A stretch of 64,000 nucleotides of DNA from NCBI GenBank assembly GCA_001804865.1, contig MHBK01000019.1, positions 1 to 64,000 of the forward strand. The letters run 5' to 3'. Positions 5,336-33,500 of the stretch are shown here, one piece after another. This stretch comes from Lentisphaerae bacterium GWF2_57_35 (lineage in GTDB: Bacteria; Verrucomicrobiota; Kiritimatiellia; CAIQIC01; GWF2-57-35). How positions within the stretch are numbered: position 1 is the first letter of the stretch; every line of letters starts with the position of its first letter. Under the pieces are notes generated by a model. The model was not told where the DNA came from. It was given only the letters and a program-made list of their open reading frames with translations, and did no database searches. The translations under genes were made by a program, and so were the position numbers.

Positions 5336-6055
5336 ATGATGCTTTTCCAGAATTATCACATGTCCAGCCCGACATCGATGATGCACATTCGGTGGGTGCA
5401 AAGGCTTGGACTCATTCCCATTTCTATCACGATCGCCATGATCCTGGCCAACCGCACGGGGGTCGGACCCGGTTTATGGACGGCTTTGGGATTGGGCGTG
5501 GGTCTTCAATTAATTCTCTGGGGTTGCAGCCGGCTCTATACGACCCACGAAAAACGAACTTTACTGGGCGATGCTCTCGTACGAATTCACGACCTGTGGT
5601 TTCCTTCGCTGGTTTTCTTCATCAAGTACGCCTTCATTGCCATTGCTCTTACCGTCCTCTGGCTCACGATCAATGAACTGGGCTTCCCGGCCTCGACCTG
5701 GCATTACGCGTTGTTTGTCCTTATCCTCATATTCCTGCCCATCGGACAAGTCCTGAGGGAAGTGGCCGGCGCCGACCCCGAGCCGAGGATTGAAGCCTGG
5801 GATAATGCCTGCCGCTGCCTCAACACGGTATTGATTACTATCGTGGCGGCCAACCTGACGTGTAATCTGATCGTGGCGCAAAGCTCTCCTTATGGAACCG
5901 AAACGGATGCTTTGGTCCTCATGATCTGGGTGCTGGCCATTCTGATCATGATCAGTTCCATGATCGTTTACTTGGGTCGAATTGTACGCCGCAAACGACC
6001 GTCCCCGCGCTGGAAACAGCGACAACCAAACTCGATAAGCGCGACGAAATTTTAG
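5336..6055 (+). CDS. Hypothetical polytopic membrane protein
   Basis: A roughly 240-residue protein with about six strongly hydrophobic segments (e.g. LGLIPISITIAMILA, FVLILIFLPIGQVL, MIWVLAILIMISSMIVYLG) and a basic C-terminal tail (RIVRRKRPSPRWKQRQ). No family is recognised. The frame is open back to 5234, but only a TTG is found there, so one of the ATGs at 5336/5339 or 5360 is the likelier start; none has a clear Shine-Dalgarno. A perfect TTGACA at 5300-5305 could be the -35 of its promoter, but no good -10 follows at the usual spacing. It is convergent with nadB. Confidence 0.55.
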   Translation: MMLFQNYHMSSPTSMMHIRWVQRLGLIPISITIAMILANRTGVGPGLWTALGLGVGLQLILWGCSRLYTTHEKRTLLGDALVRIHDLWFPSLVFFIKYAFIAIALTVLWLTINELGFPASTWHYALFVLILIFLPIGQVLREVAGADPEPRIEAWDNACRCLNTVLITIVAANLTCNLIVAQSSPYGTETDALVLMIWVLAILIMISSMIVYLGRIVRRKRPSPRWKQRQPNSISATKF

Positions 6056-9332: not shown

Positions 9333-11252
9333 TTACGACTCAAAATATGTATATCCACGCAGCCCCGACTCATACGCGTCCATAATCTGGCGTCGCTCCT
9401 CGGCGGTAATCCGGCCCGAACGCACAGCCTGTTCGGCCGCTTTTCGAACCCGGTCGAGCATTTCCTGCGGATTGTATTCCACGTAGGACAACACATCGGC
9501 CACCGTGTCGCCGGCGATTTCCGTGGCGTATTCAAGTTCGCCATTTTCACTGACGCGCAGGCTTACCACATGCGTATCGCCCAGCAGATTGTGCAAATCG
9601 CCCAAAGTTTCCTGATAGGCCCCGATCAGGAACACCCCCACATAATAATCCAATCCATTCTTTTCATGCAGCGGCAGCGTCTGCCGGACATCGTGAAGAT
9701 CGATGAAACGGTCGATTTTCCCGTCGCAGTCGCAGGTGATATCCGCGATGGTCCCCTGCCGCGAAGGCACCTCGGCCAGCCGATGAATCGGCATGATCGG
9801 GAATAATTGCTCGATGGCCCACACGTCGGGCAGCGATTGAAACACGCTGAAATTTCCGTAGTAAACGTCCGCAATGGCCGCATCGAGCCCCGCCAACTCG
9901 TCAGGAATGTATTTGCGTCCGCGAATTTCCTCCGCAATGCGCTGTACGATGTGCCAGAAAATCCGCTCCGCCAACGCACGCTGGCGAAGGGTGATTTTTC
10001 CGCTTTCGTAGAGCGCACGGGCTTCGTCGCGGTAATAAACCGCATCGTGATAGCATTCCTGCGCATTCTTGCTGGTCAGAACCTCGTTGACTTCCATCAG
10101 GCGCCGCAACTGCTCCGGGGAATCCGTCGGCACCTGCTCCGGGAGGCCATGCGACTCGCAACGGTTCACCTCCAGGATATTGAACAGCAACACGGAGTGA
10201 TGCGCCACCGTCGCACGCCCGGACTCGCTGACAATCACCGGATGCGGAATCTGGGAATCGTCGCACATCTTCATGACCGCCTCGACGATATCCGCCGCGT
10301 ATTCGTCCATCGTATAATTGCTGCTGGAAGAAAAGTTCGTGTGGGAGCCGTCGTAATCGACCGCCAGACCGCCGCCGACATTCAAAATCCCCATCTGCGC
10401 CCCTTCGCGGGCCAAATCGACGTACAGCCGGCTCGCTTCGGCCGCCGCGGCCCGAATGCTGCGGATGTTGGGAATCTGCGATCCCACGTGGTAATGCAGC
10501 ATGTGCAGACAATCCAGCATGCCGGCGTCGCGCAGATGATCCACCACATCGATGATCTGGGACGCATTCAATCCGAACATGCTCCGGTCGCCGCCGGATT
10601 CCGTCCAATAACCGGCCGCACGCGTCGCCAGCTTGGCGCGAATCCCCAACCGGGGCCGCACGCCCATGCGCTTGGCGCGATCGAGCACCATGGTCAACTC
10701 GTTGGACATTTCCAGCACAATGATAATTTGGATGCCCATCTTCAGCGTCAACAGCGCGAGATCGACGAACTCCTCGTCTTTGTAGCCGTTGCAAACCACA
10801 AACGCCTCGGGATCGTGCATATAGCCCAGCGCGGCAATCAGTTCGGCCTTGCTGCCGGCCTCCAACCCATGATGAAATCGCCCCCCGCAGGCCACCACGC
10901 TTTCCACCACCTGTTGCTGCTGGTTGACCTTGATGGGATAAACTCCGCGGTAATACGACTTGTAGCCCGCATCGAGAACCGCCTTGGCAAAGCTCGTGTT
11001 GATTTGCTCGACGCGCGAAGCCAGGATGTCTTCGAAGCGCAGCAACACCGGCATGTTCAGCCCCCGAGCCTTCAAACCCTCGACAATGTCCATCAGATCG
11101 ACATGGACCTCGGACCCCTTGCCCCGGGGGCGCACCACCACGTTGCCTTTGCCGGAAATATCGAAATATCCGGCGCCCCAATTCCGAATGCCATACAGCT
11201 CGGCAGAATCTTCCGTTGTCCAGCGCGTCAATGTTTCAGGCTTCATTCCCAT
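9333..11252 (-). CDS. speA: Biosynthetic arginine decarboxylase
   Basis: A 639-residue PLP-dependent fold-III decarboxylase converting arginine to agmatine for polyamine synthesis. The PLP lysine lies in YPIKVNQQQ; the glycine loop LNVGGGLAVDYDGS is conserved. Also present: GIRAKLATRAAGYWTESGGD and the C-terminal helical segment of the long SpeA type, whose full length is about 630-650 aa. Start is ATG at 11252 or the in-frame ATG at 11246; a GAGG sits 4 and 10 nt upstream respectively, favouring the second by spacing. A plausible promoter lies about 60 nt upstream. Confidence 0.95.
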   Translation of the reverse strand: MGMKPETLTRWTTEDSAELYGIRNWGAGYFDISGKGNVVVRPRGKGSEVHVDLMDIVEGLKARGLNMPVLLRFEDILASRVEQINTSFAKAVLDAGYKSYYRGVYPIKVNQQQQVVESVVACGGRFHHGLEAGSKAELIAALGYMHDPEAFVVCNGYKDEEFVDLALLTLKMGIQIIIVLEMSNELTMVLDRAKRMGVRPRLGIRAKLATRAAGYWTESGGDRSMFGLNASQIIDVVDHLRDAGMLDCLHMLHYHVGSQIPNIRSIRAAAAEASRLYVDLAREGAQMGILNVGGGLAVDYDGSHTNFSSSSNYTMDEYAADIVEAVMKMCDDSQIPHPVIVSESGRATVAHHSVLLFNILEVNRCESHGLPEQVPTDSPEQLRRLMEVNEVLTSKNAQECYHDAVYYRDEARALYESGKITLRQRALAERIFWHIVQRIAEEIRGRKYIPDELAGLDAAIADVYYGNFSVFQSLPDVWAIEQLFPIMPIHRLAEVPSRQGTIADITCDCDGKIDRFIDLHDVRQTLPLHEKNGLDYYVGVFLIGAYQETLGDLHNLLGDTHVVSLRVSENGELEYATEIAGDTVADVLSYVEYNPQEMLDRVRKAAEQAVRSGRITAEERRQIMDAYESGLRGYTYFES

Positions 11253-11306
11253 GATCCTCGATTCGATCGAGTCATCCTCTCTTTGATTTCGTATACACTG
11301 ACGCGA

Positions 11307-11334
11307 ATCGTACGTTGATTTTAAAAAAATGCAA
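11307..11334 (-). promoter_or_regulatory. Possible sigma-70-type promoter for speA
   Basis: On the minus strand TTGCAT (11334-11329) and TACGAT (11312-11307) are separated by 16 nt, a reasonable -35/-10 pair in the intergenic gap upstream of speA. It was assigned by eye only. Confidence 0.3.
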
Positions 11335-11371
11335 ATTCACAGAACTTATTTTTGAAGAATTCCTCGTCCGG

Positions 11372-11674
11372 TCAGCTTCCTTTGCGGATGTGCTCCTTCT
11401 CGTCTTCGCAACGCGACTGAATTCTTCGGATGTCCGTCTGCTTCTGCTCTTCCAATTTGGCCGCCGCTTCCATATCACCGGCCGCCCGGGCTTCGGCAAT
11501 CTGCTTGCCTTTCATGATCTCGACTTCCGCCATATCCGCTTTGCTCTTGCGCTCGATGCCGGCCAGAGCCGCCTTTTGTTCGGCGGAAAGAGAGGCCACA
11601 GGCCCATTCTTCCTCTCCAATCGCTCCATGGCCAGCTCATAAGAACTTTTGATGCCGTTCGCTTCGTCCTTCAT
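11372..11674 (-). CDS. Small charged coiled-coil protein
   Basis: A 100-residue, very charged protein of almost pure predicted helix (ELAMERLERKN, SAEQKAALAGIERKSK, EEQKQTDIRRIQSRCEDEKE). There are no membrane segments, signal peptide or recognised domain. Its ATG overlaps the stop of pcm by 4 nt (11671-11674), so it is co-translated with the repair methyltransferase. Function unknown. Confidence 0.7.
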   Translation of the reverse strand: MKDEANGIKSSYELAMERLERKNGPVASLSAEQKAALAGIERKSKADMAEVEIMKGKQIAEARAAGDMEAAAKLEEQKQTDIRRIQSRCEDEKEHIRKGS

Positions 11675-12348
11675 ATCTGCTCCTCGCCCTCGGTAGGGGA
11701 TTTCTCATTCGTCTCGGGGCCCGTCAACGGGACGAACCTCACTGGGATGATCTTCTCCTCCGAAACCGTGCCATCTTCGTGTTTTCGAATCAACATCAGA
11801 TATTGAGAGGACATCGCCGCCCCCACCGGAATGACCAGACGTCCGCCCAGCTTGAGCTGATCCACCAAAGCCAAGGGAACGGTTACCGGCGCCGCCGCCA
11901 CCAGCACGGCATCGAACGGGGCCTGTTCCGGCCAGCCCTTCGCTCCGTCGCCCGTGCGGACTTTGACATTCCGATAGCCCAGCGCCTTCAAATTTTCCCG
12001 TGCCTGCTCCGCCAGTTCGGGCAGTATTTCGACCGTATAGACCATCCGGCAGATTTCCGCTAGGACGGCAGCCTGGTAACCGCAGCCGGAGCCCACCTCC
12101 AGCACTTTGCTGGAAGCCCTTGCATCGGCCAGCTCCGTCATCAGGGCCACCATGTACGGCTGTGAAATGGTTTGCCCCTTTCCAATCGGCAGCGGATGAT
12201 CGGCATAGGCTTCGTCGTACAACGCGGCCGGCACGAACGCTTCGCGAGGAACCGCCCGCATCGCCCCCAACACCTCCGGATTCCGAATCCCCCGAGCCTT
12301 CAAGTCGACTTCGAGCATGTGTTCGCGCATCAACGAAAAATCATTCAT
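11671..12348 (-). CDS. pcm: Protein-L-isoaspartate O-methyltransferase
   Basis: A 225-residue SAM-dependent methyltransferase that initiates repair of isoaspartyl residues in damaged proteins. It shows the family's N-terminal RAVPREAFVPAALYDEAYAD, the conserved loop KGQTISQPYMVALMTELA, and SAM motif I VLEVGSGCGYQAAVLAEI, then GDGAKGWPEQAPFDAVLVAAA. Length is normal. The C-terminal ~15 residues (TNEKSPTEGEEQI) are an acidic extension. First gene of a two-gene unit with the small coiled-coil protein. Confidence 0.95.
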   Translation of the reverse strand: MNDFSLMREHMLEVDLKARGIRNPEVLGAMRAVPREAFVPAALYDEAYADHPLPIGKGQTISQPYMVALMTELADARASSKVLEVGSGCGYQAAVLAEICRMVYTVEILPELAEQARENLKALGYRNVKVRTGDGAKGWPEQAPFDAVLVAAAPVTVPLALVDQLKLGGRLVIPVGAAMSSQYLMLIRKHEDGTVSEEKIIPVRFVPLTGPETNEKSPTEGEEQI

Positions 12349-21423: not shown

Positions 21424-21576
21424 ATGAGGCAGGAAAAGGAAATTAAAGAGGAGCAACCGGTCGAAAAGACTTCATATGAGGCTCCAAAGATGAAGAAACA
21501 CGATCCGGTAAAGATCGTCCAAGGCTCCGGAAGCTGCGGCGGGCTTTATTACACATCGCTGTATTATTCCTACTAA
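21424..21576 (+). CDS. RiPP precursor peptide with lasso-type YxxP leader and Tyr-rich C-terminus
   Basis: A 50-residue peptide with a strong ribosome-binding site (AGGAGG, 5 nt before ATG). The leader is charged (Lys/Glu-rich residues 3-15) and contains TSYEAPKM at 16-23, matching the Y-x-x-P motif that lasso-peptide leaders use to bind the RRE (B1). The C-terminal part reads GSGSCGG (34-40) then LYYTSLYYSY (41-50): five Tyr, three further Ser/Thr and one Cys nearby, an unusually modifiable tail. A terminator follows 13 nt after the stop, so the transcript is partly separate from the maturation genes. No other gene of this size in the window has such a motif. Core boundary and modifications are unknown; lasso topology is unlikely because no cyclase is present. 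Confidence 0.85.
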   Translation: MRQEKEIKEEQPVEKTSYEAPKMKKHDPVKIVQGSGSCGGLYYTSLYYSY

Positions 21577-21589
21577 TCTTTTGTGCGAA

Positions 21590-21632
21590 AACCTCGCGGG
21601 CTCATCCCATAGACCCGCGAGGTTTTTTTTTG
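21590..21632 (+). terminator. Terminator/attenuator after the precursor gene
   Basis: An 11-bp perfect stem aacctcgcggg/cccgcgaggtt around a 13-nt loop is followed by a run of nine T. It stands between the precursor and the biosynthetic genes, an arrangement that lets the precursor transcript exceed that of the enzymes. Confidence 0.95.
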
Positions 21633-21682
21633 CAGCCAGCTAGACGGGGGACGCCAACCTGAGTTCACCTCTCTTTGTATAT

Positions 21683-22675
21683 TTGGGTCCTTGGATCTTT
21701 TGCATCGAGTCCAATTCCCAAGCCGTCCTGGAAAGCGTGGCGAGTCTGTTTGCCCATCGGGCATCGTATCGCGCACCGGAACAAGGCCGGGTTTTTACTT
21801 GTCGCGTGACGGACGATCCGGATGCTTTTTTCCATTTAGAAGCACAACTCCAAGGTTGCCCGGCTGTCGTGTCGGCCACCAAGGGGATATCGATTCGATA
21901 TGCTTACCAGAGCTCTCGGACGCTCATCGGCATGGATCACACGGCGATCATGCAGCTTGATGAAGGCCAGCCGGAACAAGCGAACGTGTTCCTGGATCCG
22001 ACGAATTACGCCCCCTATCTGGCTGGCGACGCCCAACGCAGAATTCGCGCCGATCCCGAAGCTTTTCTCTACCCGCTTCTGGCCGAATGGCTGCGCACCT
22101 GGGATGCCTGCCTGATCCATTGCGGCGCCGTGGTCGTGAATGGTCATACCGTCATGTTTTCCGGTCCGCCCGGCAGCGGGAAGTCGACCCAAGTTTTGCG
22201 CCTGCTGCTTCAGGGCGCTCATTTTTTGGCGGACGATCTGGCCATTTTACGGCGCTCGGAGCAAGGCTTGTGCATGCAACCGCTTCGCGAGGTGGCCAAT
22301 GTCAGCCCTATTTCCAAGCAGCATTTTCCCGAATTGGAGTTCCTGGATCGTTGTCCCGTTCGGGGCGACGGCAAGCGCATGGTCGACATCCATAGCATCC
22401 TGGGCCAATCGGCTGCGCAAGAAGCCCGACCCGGCGCCATACTTCGTATCCATCCGGACTCCGCTTCCTGGATCATTCCTTGTCCGGAGGAAGATCGCCT
22501 CACGGGCATCGAAAACATGGCGTGGTTTCGATCCGATCCCGCAAGAACGACCCGGCATTTCTGGCTGTTGATGGATTGGCTCTCGGCTTCGCGCCAGTGG
22601 CGCGTATCCCAGGGGTATCTGGCCTCTCATTTGTCGGAACTCATGCACCTGCTAAAACAGGAGTTTCCGGCATGA
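21683..22675 (+). CDS. HPr kinase-like protein A of the RiPP cluster
   Basis: A protein of about 330 residues. The HprK-type C-terminal kinase domain has Walker A GPPGSGKS (~161-168), then QGAHFLADDLAIL with the Asp pair seen in HPr kinase/phosphorylase. The N-terminal ~140 residues are family-specific. Relatives act as K proteins in lasso clusters (phosphorylating a Ser of the peptide) or in 'HPr-rel' systems with PqqD-like and nucleotidyltransferase partners. The frame opens with a TTG at 21683; a CTG at 21659 behind GGGGGA is also possible, so the start is uncertain. It overlaps kinase B by 4 nt. Substrate is presumably the Ser/Thr/Tyr-rich core (inference). Confidence 0.8.
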   Translation: MGPWIFCIESNSQAVLESVASLFAHRASYRAPEQGRVFTCRVTDDPDAFFHLEAQLQGCPAVVSATKGISIRYAYQSSRTLIGMDHTAIMQLDEGQPEQANVFLDPTNYAPYLAGDAQRRIRADPEAFLYPLLAEWLRTWDACLIHCGAVVVNGHTVMFSGPPGSGKSTQVLRLLLQGAHFLADDLAILRRSEQGLCMQPLREVANVSPISKQHFPELEFLDRCPVRGDGKRMVDIHSILGQSAAQEARPGAILRIHPDSASWIIPCPEEDRLTGIENMAWFRSDPARTTRHFWLLMDWLSASRQWRVSQGYLASHLSELMHLLKQEFPA

Positions 22676-23682
22676 GATCTTTTACCTCGCTGTTCGAACC
22701 GCTGGCCGCCCAAGCTTCCTGCCGGCACACCATCCCCATCATGAGCGCCCGGCTGAACCTGTTCTCTTCGGACGCGGAATTGCTGAACGATTTTGCACAC
22801 ACTTTTGTGGATTTGGATTTTACCGGTCATCAAGCCGGCTCGCAGAGCATGGAATGCGGCCTTGCGCCCCTGTCGGCCGCCTTGGATTGGAAAGACGCGC
22901 TGTCGGCCCGTCTGCAACGGGAGATCGATCATGAAGGCCTCGGACGACTCGTTCTTTATAAATGGCAGGAAGGCATCGGAGTCGAGCAGCGCGGGTTCGG
23001 CGTCGTGTTGGCGCATGCGTCCGGGCAATTTCTTTGCCTGGTCGAGAACCCGGCAGCCGCCCCCGCCGGCCGCATGCGGAATCTTTTCGGACTGGCCCAA
23101 CTCATCACGGCCGAAGCGCTGACCCGCCAACAACTCTTGTTTGTGCATGCCGGCGGTTGCGGGCTCAATGGGCGCTGCATCCTTCTGACCGGCCCCAGCG
23201 GCGCGGGAAAGACCACGCAAGCACTCCGCTTGATCCGAGAAGGCGCAACTTTTTACGGCGACGACCAGATCGTCGTGGGCCGAAATGCCGAAGGCCGATG
23301 GACCGCCTGGCCTTACTGGCGCAACATCGGCATTACCGCCTCGACGGCCCAGCTCCTCCCCTGGCTGCCGCAACCGGACAAAAACGGGGCCGGCAAAGAA
23401 AAATTCTTTTTTTCGGCCGGCGAGGAATTCCAATTCAAGAAGCCGGGTCCGGCCCGGATCGAGGCCATCGCATGGCTTTCTCCAACGGAGACAGAGCTTC
23501 GAAAGGTAGACCGCGAGGAGGCGCTGGCTTGCCTGGGCCAGCATTTTCTATCGGTCCCCTGGACGGCGGATGCCGGTCAAGTCTTGGGCGCGCTTTGCGA
23601 AATGGCGGAGAAAATCCCGGTTTACATCATGCCCCGAAACCAACTATCGGTCGCCGCCTGGAAACAAATCGCCCATGCATGA
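22672..23682 (+). CDS. HPr kinase-like protein B of the RiPP cluster
   Basis: A 336-residue paralogue of kinase A: Walker A GPSGAGKT (174-181) in ILLTGPSGAGKTTQALRL and EGATFYGDDQIVV (Asp-Asp at ~197-198). The N-terminal ~150 residues differ strongly from kinase A. ATG at 22672 overlaps the preceding stop (ATGA), and its own stop lies within the first codons of the radical SAM gene. Two tandem HprK-like proteins suggest two phosphorylation sites, a heteromeric kinase, or kinase plus phosphorylase. Confidence 0.8.
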   Translation: MRSFTSLFEPLAAQASCRHTIPIMSARLNLFSSDAELLNDFAHTFVDLDFTGHQAGSQSMECGLAPLSAALDWKDALSARLQREIDHEGLGRLVLYKWQEGIGVEQRGFGVVLAHASGQFLCLVENPAAAPAGRMRNLFGLAQLITAEALTRQQLLFVHAGGCGLNGRCILLTGPSGAGKTTQALRLIREGATFYGDDQIVVGRNAEGRWTAWPYWRNIGITASTAQLLPWLPQPDKNGAGKEKFFFSAGEEFQFKKPGPARIEAIAWLSPTETELRKVDREEALACLGQHFLSVPWTADAGQVLGALCEMAEKIPVYIMPRNQLSVAAWKQIAHA

Positions 23683-25063
23683 TCTTTCCTCCAACGAAAC
23701 GATCCGCCTGCTGTCCGCGGACGATCCGACCCAACAGCTCGGGCTGGCGTTGTTGGGCGATTCGCCGGAGCGTCATGCCGCTCAAATCCTGGAAGCCATG
23801 CTTCAAGCCAGCGCTCCGGCGCGCGATCGACTCGGCTTGTTCTGCCGGACGCGCTTTCCCTTTCTGGCGCCGCCCTGCAAAGCCGGACGTCTCATCGACG
23901 CGAATTCGTTCGTGGTCGGCGACGGCATGAAGCAACGCGAAAACCTCTTTTTGCATTCCGTGCGAGTCTGGCTGGAATCGCATCGCGAAAAGAATCCGTC
24001 TGTCTGTTTCGACCTGCTGAAGGAGCACACCGCCCTGGCGGCCGAATACGAACGAATAATTGAAGAACTCCTGGGCGCAACCGGCCTCGATGCCTGGCGG
24101 CCCTACGCAGCCAATGCCCAACCGGACCCCGTCCGGCAGTTGGGGTTTGCGCCGACGTACCGGTGCAACTTGTCTTGTCCCTACTGCATCAGCGCCTCCA
24201 TGCCGCGTGACGAGGCGGGCTGGGAGGATATCCGCCGCTTGATCCATTGGTGCCGGCAAAACGACGTCCGCCGGCTTCACTTGTTCGGCGGGGAGCCCAC
24301 TTTCCATCCAAATTTTACGGCCCTGCTACAGGAGGCCGAACAAGCCGGACTGGAAGTCTATTTTCCATCGAATTTGGTCATGTCCCCCGCCAACCTCGCC
24401 TTCATCCAACCCCCGGTGGTCCGCACGGTAACGGCGCACGTTCGGTCGCCGGATTCAACGCGCACCGGCGACACGTTCTGGCAGACGGCCGATACGCTGC
24501 AACAAAAGGGCGTTGCCGTGCGGGTGCGCTACAATTTAAAAAACGAGGACTGGTCGTTTCTGGTCGACGGCCTCAAACGGCTAAACAGCCGTAAGTTGAT
24601 TTTTGCCGGCATCGAATTCCCGGGCTGCGGGACACAGCGTTCCGAGGTGGAGTGGCTCGATCACGTCGCCTGCGCGCGCCGTTTTGTGGACTACATGCTG
24701 GAGCGAAACATCAAACCGGTGCTGGCCAAACCCCTGCCGCAATGCCTCGTGGAACAGGTCGGAGGCGCCATCCCCTGGGACGTTTTCCGGGGCCATTGCG
24801 AAGTTCATCAAAACCGGTACATGCGGAATGTTCATGTGCGCCCCGACTTCAAGATCGCCCTGTGCAATGGGGATATGAATCCGGCGAGACCCAGCCTGTG
24901 GCAATTCCCCGACTGGGCGGCCTTGCAGGACTACGTCGAACCCCGTCTGCGCGCATGGCAGAAACAACCGCTTTGGCCAAAATGCCGGTCCTGCTACTAT
25001 GAATTCCGCGGACTCTGCCAGGGCGCTTGCCTGATCGCAAAAGACCAGGAGCTGAAATCGTGA
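23675..25063 (+). CDS. Radical SAM/SPASM protein 1 with ~150-residue N-terminal extension
   Basis: A 462-residue protein. The SAM cluster motif CNLSCPYC is at Cys164/168/171, followed by the GGEP-type motif LHLFGGEPTFHP. The C-terminus has a SPASM/twitch-like Cys set (CKPL-region cysteines, CEVHQ, IALCNGD, CRSCYYEFRGLCQGAC) for auxiliary clusters. Residues 1-150 precede the barrel, contain CRTRFPFLAPPCKAGR, and match no family I know; they could be a leader-binding or partner domain. ATG at 23675 overlaps kinase B by 8 nt. Probably modifies the precursor core. Confidence 0.85.
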   Translation: MHDLSSNETIRLLSADDPTQQLGLALLGDSPERHAAQILEAMLQASAPARDRLGLFCRTRFPFLAPPCKAGRLIDANSFVVGDGMKQRENLFLHSVRVWLESHREKNPSVCFDLLKEHTALAAEYERIIEELLGATGLDAWRPYAANAQPDPVRQLGFAPTYRCNLSCPYCISASMPRDEAGWEDIRRLIHWCRQNDVRRLHLFGGEPTFHPNFTALLQEAEQAGLEVYFPSNLVMSPANLAFIQPPVVRTVTAHVRSPDSTRTGDTFWQTADTLQQKGVAVRVRYNLKNEDWSFLVDGLKRLNSRKLIFAGIEFPGCGTQRSEVEWLDHVACARRFVDYMLERNIKPVLAKPLPQCLVEQVGGAIPWDVFRGHCEVHQNRYMRNVHVRPDFKIALCNGDMNPARPSLWQFPDWAALQDYVEPRLRAWQKQPLWPKCRSCYYEFRGLCQGACLIAKDQELKS

Positions 25064-25557
25064 AAGCCGGCTTCCAACAAATCATGAGCCGTATCGATCG
25101 GCTGACGGCGCTGATCGAGCATAAAAACATCGAAGAAGCCGCCCAACTCGTGGACGAGCATCGAGCCGAATTGGCCTTGGATGACCCTCTTTATCCCTGG
25201 CTCAAAAGAGCCTGGCCTCTGCTTCGCTATTTACGACCTGAAACCCGGCGCCAGCCCTGCCTGTACCTTTGCCTGTTGTTCTTCGCGCGAGCCTGCCGCT
25301 TGCAGCAGGACGCACGGATTAACGTCTGCCTGTCCGCCCACCAGACGGAGATGAACAACGGGCATTGCTGGCTGACCATTGACGGAGAGACGATCCCTCT
25401 GTCGCCTTCCGACCGCGACCATTTCGGCGAATGCCTCGGCGGCAGCCAATGGATTCGCTATTGGGTGAGGTTTTCCCTTCGGAGCCGCAATCCGCACATT
25501 ATGGCCCGACTTAAACACATCACGCGCTTTTTGCACAAAGGAGCTTCTCATGGCTAA
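25060..25557 (+). CDS. Lasso B2-type (McjB/transglutaminase-like) leader peptidase
   Basis: A 165-residue protein. The segment from residue 66, PCLYLCLLFFARACRLQQDA, then INVCLSAH and GHCWLTIDGETIPLS, matches the McjB C-terminal (Transglut_core3) pattern: nucleophile Cys67, His102 and Asp108 as the presumed triad. In lasso clusters B2 cleaves the leader with the help of B1. The start is a GTG at 25060 overlapping the previous stop (GTGA), 9 nt after AGGAG. It overlaps the next radical SAM gene by 8 nt. B1 is a separate gene at 29371-29646, as in split-B lasso systems. B2 identity rests on motif pattern, not on a search. Confidence 0.75.
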   Translation: MKAGFQQIMSRIDRLTALIEHKNIEEAAQLVDEHRAELALDDPLYPWLKRAWPLLRYLRPETRRQPCLYLCLLFFARACRLQQDARINVCLSAHQTEMNNGHCWLTIDGETIPLSPSDRDHFGECLGGSQWIRYWVRFSLRSRNPHIMARLKHITRFLHKGASHG

Positions 25558-26527
25558 TATCATGTTAACGACCGCCTGTAATTTCCGATGCGATTACTGC
25601 TTCGGACGGCAGTTGATCGGCCCCGAACATCCGATTCAGATGATGGACCCGGACCTCTATCGCCGGTTGCTCGATTGGATCGATGCCGCCAATATGCCGA
25701 ACCTGGACGTCCACCTCATGGGCGGAGAGCCCACCCTGCATCCGAAATTCTCCGAATTAGCCGAGGAGCTGGTTCAACGGGGACGCAAGGCGGTTGTTTT
25801 CTCGAATTTGTCGGCGCCCTTGCCCAAAGAAGTGCTGGAACGTTGCGTGGAGAACGACGTGATGTGGGTAGTCAATGCCAACGCCCCCTCCTCTTACCTG
25901 CCCGTTCAATTGGAGCACTTGCATCGCAATCTGGCCGTAGTGGGCGACCAAGCGATGCTGACGTTCAACATCACGGGGCCCGACACGGATTTCGACTACA
26001 TCTTCGACCTGATCGCGCAGCACAAGCTTGCGCACAGCATTAAAATCGGCATCACGCTGCCCACCCTGGATCATCAAAATGCGCATGTGAAGCGGGAACA
26101 ATACCCCGGCGTGGCCAAGCGAGTCATGGAACTTCACGAGGAGGCCCTTCGTCAAAACGTCCGGATCGAATTCGAATGCGGCGTGGCCTACTGCGTATTT
26201 AGCCCCGCCCAGCGCGCGCTCTTGAAAGACATCCATATCAGCCATTGCGGATCGCGGCTGGACATCACGCCCTGGGGCGAAGTCATCAACTGCCTGCCGT
26301 TGTGTAAAGCCGCCAGCATAGCTTATGACCGGTTCGCGCATTATGGCGAAGCCGTGCACTGGTATCGCCGGGCGCTGCATCCCTATCGGGGCTTGGGCAA
26401 CTCTACGACCTGTCCCGACTGCGCTCACATGAAGGAAGGTCGTTGCGGAGTCTGTCTGGCGGACACGCTGTGGCAGATGGATCACATCGCCTGGCCGCCT
26501 CAACCGGCGGCGAACTCGATTTCATAA
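25550..26527 (+). CDS. Radical SAM/SPASM protein 2
   Basis: A 325-residue protein that begins almost directly with the cluster motif CNFRCDYC (Cys10/14/17), followed by HLMGGEPTLHPKF. The C-terminal half has FECGVAYCVFSP, SHCGSRLDITPWGEVINCLP and CPDCAHMKEGRCGVC, the Cys layout of two auxiliary clusters. Clearly paralogous to the protein at 28405-29358 (motif at the same residues) and to the Cys-less relative at 27563-28408. Start overlaps B2 by 8 nt; ends one base into the next start (TAATG). Inferred precursor-modifying enzyme. Confidence 0.88.
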   Translation: MANIMLTTACNFRCDYCFGRQLIGPEHPIQMMDPDLYRRLLDWIDAANMPNLDVHLMGGEPTLHPKFSELAEELVQRGRKAVVFSNLSAPLPKEVLERCVENDVMWVVNANAPSSYLPVQLEHLHRNLAVVGDQAMLTFNITGPDTDFDYIFDLIAQHKLAHSIKIGITLPTLDHQNAHVKREQYPGVAKRVMELHEEALRQNVRIEFECGVAYCVFSPAQRALLKDIHISHCGSRLDITPWGEVINCLPLCKAASIAYDRFAHYGEAVHWYRRALHPYRGLGNSTTCPDCAHMKEGRCGVCLADTLWQMDHIAWPPQPAANSIS

Positions 26528-27555
26528 TGGACGCAAACCCGATGCCGCGCTCCTTCAAAGAACACTGCCGACGACGACTGACCCGCTGGACGGGTCTGCC
26601 CTTCGGCCCACCCCGAACGCTGGCCATCGAGCCGACCAATCACTGCACCCGGAAATGCCCAGTCTGCGGCGCTCATTCCGGCCAGGCCATCCGCCCGCGC
26701 GGCTTCATGGATTGGAATCTTTTTCTGGCCCTCGCGGATCAAATCCAGGCCCTGAAGCCGGCGCGAGTTTCTTTGTATGGGCACGGAGAGCCGCTGTTGC
26801 ATCCGCGCTTGCCCGACATGACGCGGGAGCTGGCGCAACGGGGCTTGCACACTGAAATAGTAACTAACGGCGATCTACTGGATGCGGAGCTGCTGGCGCG
26901 ATGCTCGTCAGCCGGTCTCGGCAGCTTGATTGTCTCCCACCCCGGCATTACGCCGGCAAATTACAAAGCTTGCCGGGGCGAGCTGCAAAATACAGTCCAG
27001 GAAGATCGATTGCGATCGTTGATTCAAAGTGCGGCGCCTTCCTGCGACATTTACATCCGCAGTCTGGTTTTGCCGCAGCTGTTGAACGACGGCCCCGCCG
27101 AGTTGGCGTCGTTTGTCCGCGGCTGGCTCACGCTGCCAGGCATCCGCGGCGTGGGACTGCACGGATATCAACCCTGGCCGCGTCATGGCCTGGAGCAGCA
27201 CCTCGGGCAGCTCTTTACCCGAGCCCGCCGTTGCGAGTTGGGCATGGAAACCATGACCGTTCTCTGGAATGGAACCGTTACGCTGTGCTCTTACGATTCG
27301 GAAGGAGCCCTCGCGGTGGGACAGGCACCGGGCTTGTCCTTGCTGGATGCTTACCGCGGCGCCGAAGCCCGGCGGCGGCGCAAAGCATGGTTTGGCGCCT
27401 CGTCCAAATGGCCGGAACTGTGCCGCGATTGCCTGTTGCCCCGTTGCGCGGCGGTCTTCATTCCCCTGGGCCGCGAGATTCTTCGCTCGGAGACCTTGTT
27501 CGAACGCCAGGTTCGCAGTGCGTACGATCAACTGAACGCCGCGCATTCAGGATAG
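26527..27555 (+). CDS. Radical SAM/SPASM protein 3
   Basis: A 342-residue protein of a different subfamily from protein 2: CTRKCPVC at Cys40/44/47 within LAIEPTNHCTRKCPVCGAH, then VSLYGHGEPLLHP (GEP motif) and a C-terminal SPASM-like CSYDSEG...CRDCLLPRC. The IEPTNHC context recalls SPASM proteins acting on peptides or in cofactor assembly. ATG at 26527 overlaps the previous stop. It is the last plus-strand gene of this arm, ending 7 nt before the convergent minus-strand arm. Confidence 0.87.
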   Translation: MDANPMPRSFKEHCRRRLTRWTGLPFGPPRTLAIEPTNHCTRKCPVCGAHSGQAIRPRGFMDWNLFLALADQIQALKPARVSLYGHGEPLLHPRLPDMTRELAQRGLHTEIVTNGDLLDAELLARCSSAGLGSLIVSHPGITPANYKACRGELQNTVQEDRLRSLIQSAAPSCDIYIRSLVLPQLLNDGPAELASFVRGWLTLPGIRGVGLHGYQPWPRHGLEQHLGQLFTRARRCELGMETMTVLWNGTVTLCSYDSEGALAVGQAPGLSLLDAYRGAEARRRRKAWFGASSKWPELCRDCLLPRCAAVFIPLGREILRSETLFERQVRSAYDQLNAAHSG

Positions 27556-27562
27556 CGCGCCC

Positions 27563-28408
27563 TTATCGGCCAGCCTGCCACCCCGACATGGACTGCGCCA
27601 GGCAACCCACCCCGCAAGCCCCCGTGGCCAAACTCCGGCAATTCGTACCCCCAGCCCGCTCGCACCAACCCTGGAAAACCGCAGGCCAACCGGCCATCAC
27701 GTCCGCCCGGCTAACGGAAGCATCCAGATTCATGCCGCGGCCATCCATCGCCGGGCACAATCGCAAGGTTCCATCGGGCAAAACAGCGAGCTGAAGCTGA
27801 CAGCGCGCCGCCGGCCAACGAATGCGCGTGCCGGTCAATTGGGCAAGCTGCGGCCGGGAAAAAAGGCAGAGCGGCAACCCGCAGGCAAATTCCACATCCA
27901 GCCGCCGGGCGCTCAATTCAGCGGCCAGTTCCACCAACAATTTGCCCCACACGGAATACCGATCGGGAGAGATGATTCCCGGTCTTTCGAAACGGCTCGG
28001 CCACATCGCCCCCAGCACAACCCGCCGCGAGGGCTTTATCGCGTCCACCACTTTCAACCAAAGCGCAGGATCAGCGACGGGCTCCATCAAGGGCAAAAAC
28101 AAAACCGACGGCAAAACCGGATAACGAGGGGCTGCCGTTTCCATGCCGGCGGCATCAAGACCCCATTCGCTGCCATGAGCCTGAATGGTCTCGATATGCT
28201 CCATCGTAACATGCCGATCGAACCAGCCATGAACCCAATACGGAGGTTTCAAAATCGCCAGGGCGCCCCGAAGCTCGTTTACGTCCACTTCGCCGCGCAC
28301 ATAAAGATGAATTTCCGGGTCGCCGGATGTGAGGCTCCATTCGGCACAACGTTTCAGGCACTCGGCCGTCATGACCGACCGGCCATCGCCAAGCCAGATC
28401 GCGATCAT
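27563..28408 (-). CDS. Radical SAM-like pseudo-enzyme (CX3CX2C lost, SPASM-like C-terminus kept)
   Basis: A 281-residue paralogue of the radical SAM proteins at 25550 and 28405. The C-terminal block VEFACGLPLCLFSRPQL...RCQLQLAVLPDGTLRLCP...CRSLATGACGVGC aligns with theirs position by position. The N-terminus starts IAIWLGDGRSVMTAECL, with no cysteine cluster where CX3CX2C should be. It therefore cannot bind the SAM cluster but may keep an auxiliary cluster or bind peptide. ATG at 28408 overlaps the upstream gene's stop (ATGA), with intact frame and normal codons, so it is not a decaying pseudogene. Possibly a scaffold or partner. Confidence 0.75.
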   Translation of the reverse strand: MIAIWLGDGRSVMTAECLKRCAEWSLTSGDPEIHLYVRGEVDVNELRGALAILKPPYWVHGWFDRHVTMEHIETIQAHGSEWGLDAAGMETAAPRYPVLPSVLFLPLMEPVADPALWLKVVDAIKPSRRVVLGAMWPSRFERPGIISPDRYSVWGKLLVELAAELSARRLDVEFACGLPLCLFSRPQLAQLTGTRIRWPAARCQLQLAVLPDGTLRLCPAMDGRGMNLDASVSRADVMAGWPAVFQGWCERAGGTNCRSLATGACGVGCLAQSMSGWQAGR

Positions 28409-29358
28409 GAGTCGCCTCCCGCCCGGGCCAGCGTTCTGGACATGCACCCGCCCGAACAAACGCCGTCAGCGAAAGGACGGCATTGAACGCAACTCTTCAA
28501 ACTTCCGCGCGCTTGGGGCTCCTGCCAACGCTCCAGGAAATGCCGGGAGATTTCTTCCAGCGAGGAAAATTGCGTCAAGGTCACGCTGTGCGCGCCGGAA
28601 AACGGGAAACATCGCCACACCTTCAAGTCAGGTCCAATATCCAGGATCGGCTTGCATACGAACAACAATTCGGCGCCGCACTCCACCAAGGTCGCCAATT
28701 CGTCCGGCGTGAAGAGGCACCGTTGAAAACCGCAGTCAAAACCGATCACAATGCCGTCCTTCGCCAAATCCACGGCCATCTCCACCAAGCGGGCCGCGAC
28801 GGAGCGCAAATCGGCGTCCTTGAGGTATACGTTTTTCTCGCCCTGAATGGGTTGCGTGATGCCGATGCGAATGGATTTTCCCAGGCCGGTTTCCTGAATC
28901 GTCCGGCGCAGATAATCCCACTCGAATCCGGGCGTATAAATGTTGAACGAAAGCCGCGCCCGATCGCCGAAGGCCCGGCCGTTTGCCACGATTTCGGTCC
29001 ATTCCGTTTTCGTATATTGATCGGGCGGATTCAAATTAACGATGATCCGCAAGGCCGATGAAGGAGACAGGTCCACCACCTCCCTCAGGCGGGGATTCGT
29101 GCCGTTGGTGAAAATTTTTACGCTGTAGCGCCGATCCAAAGCCAGCTTCACCAGCTGGGCAAAATGCCGGTGCAGCGTAGGCTCGCCGCCCAACAACGCC
29201 ACCGAGTCGCGCCCCGGACGCAAATAGCCGAGGATGGTTTCATATTCCGCCAGACTCATTTCCCAGCGAGGCGTCGATGTGCCCAGGGCGACTTGTTCCT
29301 TGGCAAAGCAGTAAGGACAACTCCGATTGCAGTAATTGGTCAGGAGGATATTCGGCAT
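28405..29358 (-). CDS. Radical SAM/SPASM protein 4
   Basis: A 317-residue enzyme with CNRSCPYC at Cys10/14/17 (same positions as protein 2), SVALLGGEPTLHRHF, and C-terminal FDCGFQRCLFTP, CKPILDIGPDLKVWRC and CVQCRPFADGVCSGGC. It lies 12 nt downstream of the PqqD-like B1 gene; RRE-radical SAM adjacency is a hallmark of RiPP maturation. It overlaps the pseudo-enzyme gene by 4 nt, which suggests the two are made in equal amounts and may form a pair. Confidence 0.88.
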   Translation of the reverse strand: MPNILLTNYCNRSCPYCFAKEQVALGTSTPRWEMSLAEYETILGYLRPGRDSVALLGGEPTLHRHFAQLVKLALDRRYSVKIFTNGTNPRLREVVDLSPSSALRIIVNLNPPDQYTKTEWTEIVANGRAFGDRARLSFNIYTPGFEWDYLRRTIQETGLGKSIRIGITQPIQGEKNVYLKDADLRSVAARLVEMAVDLAKDGIVIGFDCGFQRCLFTPDELATLVECGAELLFVCKPILDIGPDLKVWRCFPFSGAHSVTLTQFSSLEEISRHFLERWQEPQARGSLKSCVQCRPFADGVCSGGCMSRTLARAGGDS

Positions 29359-29370
29359 TCGCCACGCTCT

Positions 29371-29646
29371 TCAGGAACCAGTCGATTCCGCCACGAGGTT
29401 TTCGCTTTTCCACTCGCCGATGAGGGCGAGGCAATCCTGCCGCACGGCCTCCGCTTCCGGCGCTTCTTTCACGGCATCGCGCAGAGCCATCACCGTCTCG
29501 TCCAGCGACTTCTTGCCGACCACATGATTTTTCCACAACAAAGAACCCGTGGCGTTCAAGGTGTAGTACTGGCCGTTGGCCGTATTAAGAACCACGCAAA
29601 TGTCCCCGGAATTCCGCCACACAATATGATCCCCTGTCGTCAACAT
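29371..29646 (-). CDS. PqqD-like RRE protein (lasso B1-type leader-binding protein)
   Basis: A 91-residue protein with the PqqD/RRE pattern: three beta strands around WRNSGDICVVLNTANGQYYTL, then NATGSLLWKNHVVGKKSLDETVMAL and a terminal helix. The RRE binds leader peptides; in lasso systems it recognises the YxxP motif, which the precursor at 21424 carries. A strong AAAGGAG precedes the ATG by about 6 nt. It follows the NTP_transf_5 gene (84-nt gap) and precedes radical SAM protein 4. Confidence 0.88.
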   Translation of the reverse strand: MLTTGDHIVWRNSGDICVVLNTANGQYYTLNATGSLLWKNHVVGKKSLDETVMALRDAVKEAPEAEAVRQDCLALIGEWKSENLVAESTGS

Positions 29647-29729: not shown

Positions 29730-30839
29730 TCATCCACCGCGCGCAATCACTTTACCGCTGAGCCCAGCCCGTCGCGCCGAGCGATACTCCCGCATAAATT
29801 TTGCCGAGAAGCACGGGAGAATGGCGGCGAGCTTGGACCACCACCCTTCCGCCTCGCTCACTTCAATCCGTTTCCACAACCTGAAAGCTTCCGGAGACTC
29901 CCCGGTGAAAAGTCCTCTGGCAGCCCAATAACGATTGACCAGCCGATCGAAACGGTCTTTCACACCCCAATCGACGCTTGCCCAGCTCAAAGGCATTTCC
30001 CAACCGACTTCCTGCAGGCCCCGCCATACGACCCAGGCCATGCGGCCCCATCCCCGTGATAAAAAGGCCGTTTGCACAGCCGAAGGGTCAGGCTGCCGAA
30101 CCGACCACCAGGCCGCCAGGTCGCGAAGCCAGAGGTAACGCGCATACTCATGATGCCTCGCATGCAAAACCAACATCAGCAGATCGTCAACGGGTTCCAA
30201 TTGTAACAACGGCGCATGTCGCGGAGAGGGTTGAGCCCTATCCATTAAGGCCTCCGTGCTCAACAAGCCCCAGTGCCGTCGGCGTTCCGCTGCGCAAAAA
30301 TGGACCTCAATAAGCGCATCGCCCCGACGATAAATCCGCTGGCGCCTGCGGCGTTCTTCTTCAAACCGATGCCCTAAAAACCAGGAGGAAACGGCATCGA
30401 TATCGTTTTCGGAAACGAGCAGATCGATATCGCGAACTTCCCGGCAACGATAATCGCCGAAGACTTCCAAGAGGTAATTCGGGGATTTCATCAGCACGAC
30501 CCGGCAGCCGATTTCACGAGCCAACGTTCCTACTTCGCAAAGGCCTTCGTTCACGATGGCCCCACGTCGCGCGGCGGTCTCTCCGGCAATCCAGAGCAGC
30601 TCTCGGGCCGCTTCCGGCAAAGCCGAGAAGCCGGCCCAGGGCGTTTGGAAGCCCGCCAGCACCCGATGATACTGCCCCATCCACAGCAGATAGCCCCAAT
30701 CCAGCTGTTCCATGTCCCAGACGGATTCCATGCATCGATTGCGCCAGCTTGCCTCCAGGGAAGAAAACCAGAATTGCCGGGAATACGGGTCGGCCCGCTT
30801 GGGACAGACCAATTCAAATTCGTTCATTTGCTTTGCCAT
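29730..30839 (-). CDS. NTP_transf_5-type nucleotidyltransferase
   Basis: A 369-residue protein with the hallmark of the 'uncharacterised nucleotidyltransferase' family: VVLMKSPNYLLEVFGDY then REVRDIDLLVSENDIDAV (metal-binding D-I-D) and later DALIEVHF. Such proteins accompany HprK-like kinases in lasso and HPr-rel clusters; in the pseudomycoidin lasso system the homologue is implicated in elaborating the phosphorylated residue. ATG at 30839 or 30827; neither has a clear ribosome-binding site. It is divergent from the kinase gene at 30907 across a 67-nt shared promoter region. Confidence 0.82.
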   Translation of the reverse strand: MAKQMNEFELVCPKRADPYSRQFWFSSLEASWRNRCMESVWDMEQLDWGYLLWMGQYHRVLAGFQTPWAGFSALPEAARELLWIAGETAARRGAIVNEGLCEVGTLAREIGCRVVLMKSPNYLLEVFGDYRCREVRDIDLLVSENDIDAVSSWFLGHRFEEERRRRQRIYRRGDALIEVHFCAAERRRHWGLLSTEALMDRAQPSPRHAPLLQLEPVDDLLMLVLHARHHEYARYLWLRDLAAWWSVRQPDPSAVQTAFLSRGWGRMAWVVWRGLQEVGWEMPLSWASVDWGVKDRFDRLVNRYWAARGLFTGESPEAFRLWKRIEVSEAEGWWSKLAAILPCFSAKFMREYRSARRAGLSGKVIARGG

Positions 30840-30906
30840 AGTTTGGGACCGTCGTATACTGAAATCCACGTATAACACGTCCGCCGCACGGGCGTCAAAA
30901 CTGCAC

Positions 30907-31728
30907 ATGAATCCATTAAAGAAAACCGATCGTTCGCTGCCCCCGGGATACAGGGCTGAAGGGATGCGGCATGAAAGCCCGGCTTACGTCGTGTACCAAG
31001 CGCTGCACCTGGCCACCGGCCGGATGTGCGCTATTAAAACCACGCGAAAAGCGCCCACCCCGGACGCCACAACGGCCTTGGAACATGAATTTGACGCGCT
31101 ACGGCGTTTGTCGGGATCGTTCGCGCCCAAAGCGTACGAGTTGCTTCGTCCGGAGAAGCTGTTCCTCGTGCTGGAGTGGATCGACGGCGCCGACCTGGAA
31201 AGCATCATTCGAAGCAAGCCGCCGCTTCCACGCGCCATCGCACTGGCAAGCATGATCCTGAAGGCCGTTGACGATTTGCATGCCTCGGGTTTTTTGCACT
31301 TGGATCTGAAGCCGGCCAATATTCTGATCCGCCCAACGGGCGCCGCCGCCTTGATCGATTTTGCCCTCGCCCAACCCATCGGGCCGCCTGTCGCCCCGCC
31401 CGAGCAGCCGTTTCTTTTGCAAGGGACTTTATCCTATATGGCGCCGGAGCAAACCGGCTGGCTCGATGCACCGATCGATCGACGCGCGGATTATTATGCG
31501 CTGGGAGTCATTTTTTATGAATTGTTCGTCGGCGCGACGCCGTTTGCCGCCCAGACATTTCAGGAACTGCTGGATCATGTGCTTCACTCCGTTCCGGCAG
31601 AACCCATCGACCTACCGCTGCCGCTAAACCAGCTCATCATGCAATTGCTGGCCAAGCATCCGGATCAGCGGCCCGGCGAATTGGGCAAAGCCGCCGCGGT
31701 CGTTTCCTCGTCGGCAGAGATTTGCTGA
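30907..31728 (+). CDS. Ser/Thr protein kinase-like protein
   Basis: A 273-residue Hanks-type kinase domain without membrane or sensor domains. Present: the N-lobe lysine in CAIKTTRK (Lys44), catalytic loop HLDLKPANIL (His131, Asp133, Asn138) and YMAPEQTGWLD (APE). Atypical: no GxGxxG loop (RAEGMRHESPAYVVY instead), and DFG replaced by DFA (Asp151-Ala153). The Asp is retained, so activity is possible. The stop region overlaps the 3' end of the convergent ABC gene by 64 nt. Could regulate the cluster or phosphorylate the peptide; neither is shown. Confidence 0.85.
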   Translation: MNPLKKTDRSLPPGYRAEGMRHESPAYVVYQALHLATGRMCAIKTTRKAPTPDATTALEHEFDALRRLSGSFAPKAYELLRPEKLFLVLEWIDGADLESIIRSKPPLPRAIALASMILKAVDDLHASGFLHLDLKPANILIRPTGAAALIDFALAQPIGPPVAPPEQPFLLQGTLSYMAPEQTGWLDAPIDRRADYYALGVIFYELFVGATPFAAQTFQELLDHVLHSVPAEPIDLPLPLNQLIMQLLAKHPDQRPGELGKAAAVVSSSAEIC

Positions 31729-33500
31729 ACCATGCACATATACTTGAAGATCGGCGACGAAACGAGCAGGTCCTGAGGCCGCCCCACGGCTTCCACGCGG
31801 TTTTGATTGAGCACGACCACCCGATCCGATCGCATGGCCAGACTCATGCGATGCGTGACGATCAGCGTGATGCGCTCCGGCGCCGCTGAACCGATCAACC
31901 GAAAAACCTGTTCCTCCGACTGGGCATCCAAGGCCGAAGTCGGTTCGTCGAGCAACAACACATCCGGCCGCGCCAGCAACGCGCGCAACAAGGCGATTCG
32001 CTGGGCTTCGCCGCCCGACCAGTCCGTCCCGCTTTCGGCCATCCGGGCCTCCAAGCCGCCCCGGCGAGCCGTCACTTCGCCCAGCCCCAGCGTCGCCAGC
32101 CCCGAGAGCAGCTCTTCCTCGCACACGTCAGGGGCTCGAATCAGCAGATTCTCCCGGATCGTCCCTCGAAAGAGTTCCGGAGATTGGAAAACCACGCCAA
32201 TTCGGCGTCGCCAATCGCCCAAGGCCAGCGTATCCAAGGAACGTCCGTTCACAAGCACTTGCCCTTGATCCGGCTGAATGAAGCCCAGTATCAAATCCAA
32301 GAGCGTGGATTTTCCTACTCCGCTCAAGCCCACCATGCTCACTACCTCGCCGCGCCTCACGGCCAAGTCAATCTGTTCCAAGCCGCCCCCATCCGCTCCA
32401 TACGCAAAACTCACGTTGGAAAAGGCCAGCTCGTGAACAGGGCCGGGCATGGGCGCCGCATCCGGTTTTTCGATGGCCTCGGGAGGTTCATCCATGAGCT
32501 TCAGATAACGAGAGCCCGCCGCGCGAAAATCCTGCACCGAAGCCACGGCCAGGGCCGCCTTGCGCAATTCCTGTCCGATAAGCAGAATCCCGACGAGAAT
32601 GGACACCAAGGCGCCCACGGACAATTCGCCGCGGCGCACCCAATCCACGCCGGTAAAGGCGACGGCCAGAAAGCAGAGCAATAGGACGATCGCCGCCACA
32701 TGCCGCGCCGCCAGGGCCATCAACAAGCCGCTGCGCGCCAGCCGCAGATGATCCTTCACCCAGGCGCGAAGCACGCCGGCCTGCCGTTCCTCCAGGCAGA
32801 ACGCCTTGACGGTCCGCGCATGAAAAAACGATTCCGCCAATCGGCCCGTCAAACTGCTCATCTGATCCAGCTTATCCGCGCTGATGCGCATGAGCCGCCG
32901 GCGGAGCAGCAAAGCCGGCAATCCGGCGGCCAGCAGCGAGACAACGATCACGGCCGCGTAGCCCCGCGAAAGCCAAAGGATGGACGACAGATAAACCAGC
33001 AGAGTAATCGGGGCCGCCAGCAACAGCCGGGGCAACGTCAGTATCCCCTGTTGAACGGCCCTCACATCGTGATCGCAACGGGAAACCCATTCGCCGACCG
33101 GCACGCTCTCGAGCCGGCGCAGCGGCAGCCGCAGCACATGAAGATAGACCGCCTCGCGCAAGGTCTCGCGAATTCGCAGCGATTCGCCCAACTCCAGATT
33201 GGAACTGAGAAAAAACACGATTTCGACGGCCAGCAAGAGTCCCGCGCTGCACGCAAACAACCACCCCGCATCGTACCCCAGCGAGCCGCCCTCCCATTCC
33301 ACCAGCCGTCGCAAGAGAGGCAACAGGGCCGCCAACATCGCCGCCGCCAAGCTTTGAAGGCCAATCAAGGCAAGCAGCTTCCACCACGAGCACCGGGCCA
33401 GACGGCTGATGCGGAAAAAATCGTCCCGGGAAAAATCCGAAGGAGCGCCGCGGCGACGGGGATTCGCCAAAGCCAAAGGAGTCTCCCTGTTGTGCTTCAT
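31665..33500 (-). CDS. ABC exporter (lasso D-like), fused membrane and ATPase domains
   Basis: A 611-residue half-transporter: transmembrane helices between ~40 and 310, then an ATPase with Walker A GLSGVGKST (391-399), Q-loop VVFQSPELF, signature WSGGEAQ (494-500), Walker B VLLLDEPTS (~514-522) and H-loop His550. There is no N-terminal C39 peptidase domain, so leader removal must be done elsewhere, consistent with B2. Alone in its orientation next to the kinase; proposed to export the mature peptide. An MsbA-like lipid exporter is the alternative. Confidence 0.88.
   Translation of the reverse strand: MKHNRETPLALANPRRRGAPSDFSRDDFFRISRLARCSWWKLLALIGLQSLAAAMLAALLPLLRRLVEWEGGSLGYDAGWLFACSAGLLLAVEIVFFLSSNLELGESLRIRETLREAVYLHVLRLPLRRLESVPVGEWVSRCDHDVRAVQQGILTLPRLLLAAPITLLVYLSSILWLSRGYAAVIVVSLLAAGLPALLLRRRLMRISADKLDQMSSLTGRLAESFFHARTVKAFCLEERQAGVLRAWVKDHLRLARSGLLMALAARHVAAIVLLLCFLAVAFTGVDWVRRGELSVGALVSILVGILLIGQELRKAALAVASVQDFRAAGSRYLKLMDEPPEAIEKPDAAPMPGPVHELAFSNVSFAYGADGGGLEQIDLAVRRGEVVSMVGLSGVGKSTLLDLILGFIQPDQGQVLVNGRSLDTLALGDWRRRIGVVFQSPELFRGTIRENLLIRAPDVCEEELLSGLATLGLGEVTARRGGLEARMAESGTDWSGGEAQRIALLRALLARPDVLLLDEPTSALDAQSEEQVFRLIGSAAPERITLIVTHRMSLAMRSDRVVVLNQNRVEAVGRPQDLLVSSPIFKYMCMVQQISADEETTAAALPNSPGR

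Follow-up and report, generated by a model that had tools for sequence, protein, structure and literature searches.

What does a radical SAM protein do in a peptide-modification cluster once it has lost the site for its catalytic cluster, and is such a protein kept for a function at all? This question is raised by a gene at 27563..28408 (-) of the window, the stretch of 64,000 nucleotides from Lentisphaerae bacterium GWF2_57_35 (contig MHBK01000019.1) that was analysed in this study. The gene encodes P0001, a cluster-less radical SAM/SPASM-like protein of 281 aa.

Sequence of P0001 and its Spirochaetes orthologue

The reading frame of P0001 is intact and begins with ATG. Its start overlaps the end of the upstream gene rSAM4 (28405..29358, (-)) by the 4 nt ATGA, with rSAM4 ending in GGC GAC TCA TGA and P0001 beginning with ATG ATC, and GGGAGG forms a ribosome-binding site 6 nt upstream of the ATG. 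A codon-usage model built from 13 further window genes gave P0001 0.308 bits/codon, compared with 0.24-0.52 in the other window genes, and negative values for the remaining five frames. rSAM4 is a catalytic radical SAM protein with CNRSCPYC, GGEPTLH and eight auxiliary cysteines (Pfam Radical_SAM, 3.5e-14), and, as the translationally coupled upstream gene, it is the likely partner candidate for P0001.

Elsewhere in its own genome, P0001 matched only rSAM2 and rSAM4 (E 6.4e-5 and 1.3e-4), and both matches fell inside residues 125-277. The CX3CX2C motif, the SAM [4Fe-4S] site, is absent from the P0001 sequence, and GGEP is intact in neither register (SGDP by MAFFT, RGEV by eye from the order of strands and helices). 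No Pfam or NCBIfam model matched P0001, Pfam Radical_SAM included. The homology of the C-terminal half to rSAM2 and rSAM4, the missing CX3CX2C, the intact frame and the 4-nt overlap had been described in the earlier note, and all of them were borne out. Because there is no CX3CX2C and no intact GGEP, SAM cleavage would not be expected of P0001; as firmly as a sequence allows, we believe the protein to be incapable of SAM-radical chemistry.

The SPASM domain was judged by a seven-cysteine motif that includes CX9-15GX4C and CX2CX5CX3C. P0001 keeps seven family cysteines, namely CX4C (176, 181), CX9GX4C (203, 218) and those at 257, 265 and 269, and the first Cys of the family CX2C is missing. By this measure, CX9GX4C and CX7CX7CX3C are present, CX2C has become CX7C, and there was no match to the SPASM HMM.

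When 84,980 species genomes were scanned with an alignment of the catalytic paralogues as the query, 80 loci were obtained; a plain scan of the species-genome contigs with P0001 itself gave nothing. At one of these loci, L018, which comes from a Spirochaetes MAG, P0001 as a phmmer query picked 11194-12099 (-) (ORF 11194-12117) at the first rank with E 2.3e-14. This ORF was unlisted by the catalytic family model and was found by the plain search with P0001. Its frame is intact, it has neither CX3CX2C nor a GGEP motif, and it starts 10 bp after rSAM4 behind an AGGAGAA site. The gene order at L018 is that of the window: HprKa, HprKb, rSAM1, the B2-like gene and rSAM2, then the convergent cluster-less gene, rSAM4 and the PqqD-like gene. 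Neither rSAM3 nor the NTP_transf_5 gene was detected at the L018 locus.

P0001 and the L018 orthologue share CX4C, CX9GX4C and a derived CEx6CRSx3TxACGxG, in which the family CX2C has become CX7C; the L018 orthologue has Ala in place of the last family cysteine. In the tree, the two proteins formed one clade (99/93) outside all catalytic members, on long branches, and these gave no decision on whether the dead copy came from rSAM2 or rSAM4. Between the window and L018, the identity of the cluster-less pair is 24%, compared with 48% for rSAM4 and 42% for rSAM2, so the dead copy is under looser constraint; its C-terminal part is the best conserved portion. The proposal of a conserved inactive paralogue coupled to a catalytic copy was thus supported by a syntenic cluster-less orthologue. 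Two instances of the gene are available in all, the L018 one from a MAG, and the view that P0001 is conserved and functional rests on this one syntenic orthologue in another phylum together with the intact, coding-like frame.

Predicted fold and distribution

AlphaFold2 modelled the L018 orthologue with pLDDT 79.8 and pTM 0.78, and P0001 with pLDDT 71.2 and pTM 0.73, the P0001 model being unreliable over residues 1-60. With the L018 model, the best 28 PDB entries were all radical SAM enzymes, with SuiB at the top (Z 14.8, 255 aligned, rmsd 3.6 A) and unrelated barrels only from Z 7.8 down, an agreement that is partly built in because both models were built on alignments mostly of catalytic radical SAM proteins and are biased to that fold. 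With the P0001 model, SuiB was top at Z 7.0, the nine best entries were all radical SAM proteins and unrelated barrels followed at 5.3; Foldseek gave no clear match with this model, which by itself would prove little. The fold predicted for the L018 orthologue is a radical SAM barrel with a SPASM-type domain. P0001 is homologous to the catalytic members, and the partial TIM barrel predicted for it is consistent with radical SAM descent. The better-modelled L018 orthologue suggests that the N-terminal half of P0001 is a shortened barrel remnant and not foreign-looking. Given such a remnant at the N-terminus, P0001 probably lost its cluster-binding loop by deletion and did not acquire a new domain.

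The motif was counted in 102 ORFs, taken at 150 bits or more or as P0001 itself, including those of the window and of the whole-genome loci L009, L010 and L017. CX3CX2C was kept by all 101 other family members in the examined loci and was lacking in the window gene alone; its loss is therefore specific to the pair of P0001 and the L018 orthologue. No further P0001 orthologue was found among 193 relatives, where the sole match (G042) is a catalytic radical SAM protein, in a search of the phylum (377 genomes, E 1e-15) or among 296 relatives of the L018 genome, and none was found among 28 genomes of the order or in viral contigs or plasmids. The weak order-level matches were not accepted as orthologues: that in G024 is a catalytic radical SAM protein, and two short ones in G003 were left uncounted. 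L077 groups with rSAM4 in the tree but was rejected as a further case, since it lies in a glycan-type locus without a cluster-less gene; L080 14206-15912 was rejected as a motif-less ORF, its CX3CX2C sitting at residue 257. At two of the Verrucomicrobiota loci, L010 and L017 (G024 and G412), several different radical SAM genes were seen beside putative substrate proteins whose CxC-rich tails end in SHYWYP(C/N); this multi-rSAM system is a different one.

Seventeen Bacteroidales loci (L019-L035) carry rSAM4, rSAM2 and PqqD-like genes, mostly HprK-like genes, rSAM1 and/or rSAM3, and exporter genes. None of them has a cluster-less gene, and all tblastn matches there lay within catalytic genes. 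Because these clusters, with the same kinds of radical SAM genes and a matching precursor, go without the dead copy, the cluster-less gene is an accessory of the convergent cluster subtype to which the window and L018 belong, and the wider pathway can do without it. The idea that homologous clusters keep the Cys-less copy held for L018 and failed for the 17 Bacteroidales loci, from which the gene is absent.

The gene cluster and its precursor peptide

Upstream of rSAM4 lie a PqqD-like RiPP recognition element, lasso B1-like (29371..29646, (-); PF05402 1.5e-10, NF033530 4e-7, the latter below cut-off), an NTP_transf_5 nucleotidyltransferase-like gene (29730..30842, (-); PF14907 4.3e-23) and an ABC exporter with permease and ATPase (31665..33500, (-)). 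A Ser/Thr kinase-like gene at 30904-31728 (+) (Pkinase 2e-34) runs tail to tail into the exporter gene, sharing 64 bases with its 3' end. The opposite arm holds two HprK-like genes with uncertain start codons, a (21683..22675, (+)) and b (22648..23682, (+)), followed by rSAM1 (23675..25063, (+); 462 aa, CNLSCPYC). At 25084..25557 (+), with an inferred start, is a Transglut_core3-like gene, a candidate lasso B2-like leader peptidase, whose match to PF13471 (0.005) is weak and below cut-off; its L018 counterpart likewise matches weakly. The arm ends with the catalytic paralogue rSAM2 (25550..26527, (+); CNFRCDYC) and with rSAM3, which has a SPASM domain (26527..27555, (+); CTRKCPVC) and is convergent with the P0001 gene, 7 bp from it at its end. 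A second degenerate-looking protein is encoded at 7763-9196 (+) of the window; it matches the B12-binding family PF02310 (1.7e-6) and not Radical_SAM, and the usual CX3CX2C place of B12-dependent radical SAM enzymes seems to read LSRGHSHCPSDR.

Before the HprK-like genes, at 21424..21576 (+), a short gene with its own Shine-Dalgarno sequence encodes a putative precursor peptide of 50 residues, MRQEKEIKEEQPVEKTSYEAPKMKKHDPVKIVQGSGSCGGLYYTSLYYSY, with homologues in L018 and Bacteroidales. Behind it, a strong hairpin with a T run (21588..21634, (+); -27.3 kcal/mol, z -5.1) may act as terminator or attenuator. The L018 homologue lies at 5858-6016 (E 4.8e-13), and each of the 17 Bacteroidales loci contains one or more ORFs of the precursor type (E 7.5e-7 to 0.02); these all carry KH and VQGS and mostly lie between the PqqD-like and HprK-like genes. 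The family has invariant Y, P, KH and VQGS (Y..P...KH.....VQGS), followed by a Tyr-rich core of LYYxSLYY repeats, and the members tested matched no Pfam or NCBIfam model. No lasso cyclase of the Asn-synthase type was found on the contig, and the PF00733 matches of the genome sit on other contigs.

The make-up of the cluster points to a RiPP pathway with lasso-like B1 and B2 parts, several radical SAM enzymes, a Tyr-rich precursor and no lasso cyclase; as in RiPPs, a short precursor gene with a conserved leader and a variable core adjoins the modifying enzymes. Judging from gene content, it resembles radical SAM chemistry joined to leader handling of the lasso type, and rSAM4 probably modifies the tyrosine-rich peptide. 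The precursor family, spread across Verrucomicrobiota, Spirochaetes and Bacteroidales, may mark a RiPP class not yet described, one that employs several radical SAM enzymes alongside lasso-like B1/B2. Near related radical SAM genes, further short ORFs have leaders related to these, at L039 4620-4790 (RPELKKHGKLKN...) and L059 3832-3957 (YVAPQFFKHNPLESV...YYYYYYY); these suggest that the family is wider than the LYYxSLYY type.

In both clusters with a P0001-type gene, a Cys follows soon after VQGSG in the precursor (GSGSCGG and GSGCSG). Most Bacteroidales precursors are without such a Cys; in L027, the Cys is present and the P0001-type gene absent. A link between gene and core Cys, seen in two of two clusters with L027 as the counter-example, is a lead only.

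Function of P0001 and comparison with known systems

On balance, we lean towards P0001 being a non-catalytic partner protein of rSAM4 that descends from a peptide maturase of the radical SAM/SPASM type. By sequence and prediction, neither the SAM-cluster loop nor GGEP is left, and what persists is a shortened barrel with a SPASM-like domain that still carries cysteines. The gene is coupled to that of rSAM4, and the two are conserved together in another phylum. We infer the pairing because the gene immediately follows rSAM4 in the two clusters and because fold and cysteines are kept. A heterodimer or a peptide-presenting subunit, as the earlier note had it, may be read from the same sequences. 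We rejected the idea that P0001 supplies cysteines missing from rSAM4, because none is lacking from rSAM4 in either cluster. More tentatively, we speculated on a heteromeric maturase, in which the radical SAM/SPASM subunit would perform the radical chemistry and the cluster-less subunit, as a barrel shell with auxiliary Fe-S, would hold the Tyr-rich core or wire electrons, in a RiPP class where leader handling of the lasso type goes together with radical SAM chemistry in place of a lasso cyclase.

It is unlikely, though worth weighing, that P0001 is a stand-alone auxiliary Fe-S or electron-transfer protein whose SPASM clusters serve at least one of the four catalytic radical SAM enzymes with no stable rSAM4 complex. 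Seven SPASM-type cysteines are kept while the catalytic loop is gone, and conservation is best in the C-terminal part; however, the barrel remnant would be superfluous in a purely ferredoxin-like protein, and the change of CX2C to CX7C and the loss of the last Cys in L018 also speak against it. We are more doubtful that P0001 is a neofunctionalised enzyme whose barrel pocket takes another cofactor or substrate for a different step on the Cys-containing core. The core Cys in both clusters and its lack in most Bacteroidales precursors would suit such an enzyme, but there are two instances only, L027 has the Cys without the gene, and no conserved new catalytic motif was found. Inactive paralogues frequently serve binding in other enzyme families, and P0001, whose gene lies within the PqqD-rSAM4 operon, might be a regulatory or leader-binding chaperone that hands the precursor over to the enzymes or to the exporter independently of rSAM4; we consider this improbable, with a PqqD-like leader-binding protein already present two genes upstream. 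That P0001 is a decaying remnant of a duplicated radical SAM gene, intact by chance, would agree with the 24% identity of the two copies and the Bacteroidales clusters without the gene, but is very improbable given the intact frame, the host-like codon usage and an intact syntenic orthologue in another phylum that lacks the same motif, shares the pseudo-specific residues and likewise lies behind rSAM4.

Kinase and protease pseudo-enzymes have been studied in depth, but those of the radical SAM type hardly at all in the open literature searched. The pair conserved in two phyla, a defined small candidate substrate and sister clusters without the dead subunit make it directly testable what a radical SAM pseudo-enzyme does.

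The SPASM peptide maturases SuiB, anSME, SkfB and ChlB have the predicted barrel and SPASM-type fold in common with P0001, most clearly with its L018 orthologue, whereas P0001 is without CX3CX2C and an intact GGEP. Lasso clusters with B1/B2, some of which have HprK-like or nucleotidyltransferase-like genes, share with the P0001 cluster a separate PqqD-like protein near the lasso B1 models, a Transglut_core3-like protein, the leader Y..P and HprK-like proteins; in contrast, the contig of the P0001 cluster has no Asn-synthase cyclase, and the cluster itself has several radical SAM enzymes and a Tyr-rich core. SynChlorMet has the same kinds of parts (ScmC, HprK-like; ScmD, PqqD-like; ScmE/F, radical SAM), and the PqqD-like protein matched ScmD (2.4e-4) and HprKb matched ScmC (7e-4), all far below the curated cut-offs; there is no cluster-less radical SAM protein among the Scm models compared.

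A precedent for pseudo-rSAM partners is NCBIfam TIGR04150 (pseudo_rSAM_GG) of the GG-Bacteroidales peptide cassettes, which, like P0001, is radical SAM-like and stands beside a catalytic radical SAM protein in a peptide-modification cassette. In Bacteroides, the TIGR04150 pseudo-rSAM adjoins TIGR04148/TIGR04085 radical SAM proteins (PMC4573289). Apart from mentions of TIGR04150, the open literature searched offered nothing fitting on this precursor type or on radical SAM pseudo-enzymes. P0001 did not match TIGR04150 (curated cut-off 250 bits), which gave weak sub-threshold scores of 20-26 bits to catalytic radical SAM proteins of L018 and L023, and the TIGR04150 cassettes have another precursor type and other neighbours. 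Pseudo-rSAMs in peptide cassettes are thus already known, and P0001, because it does not match TIGR04150, is another case of this idea, separate from that family.
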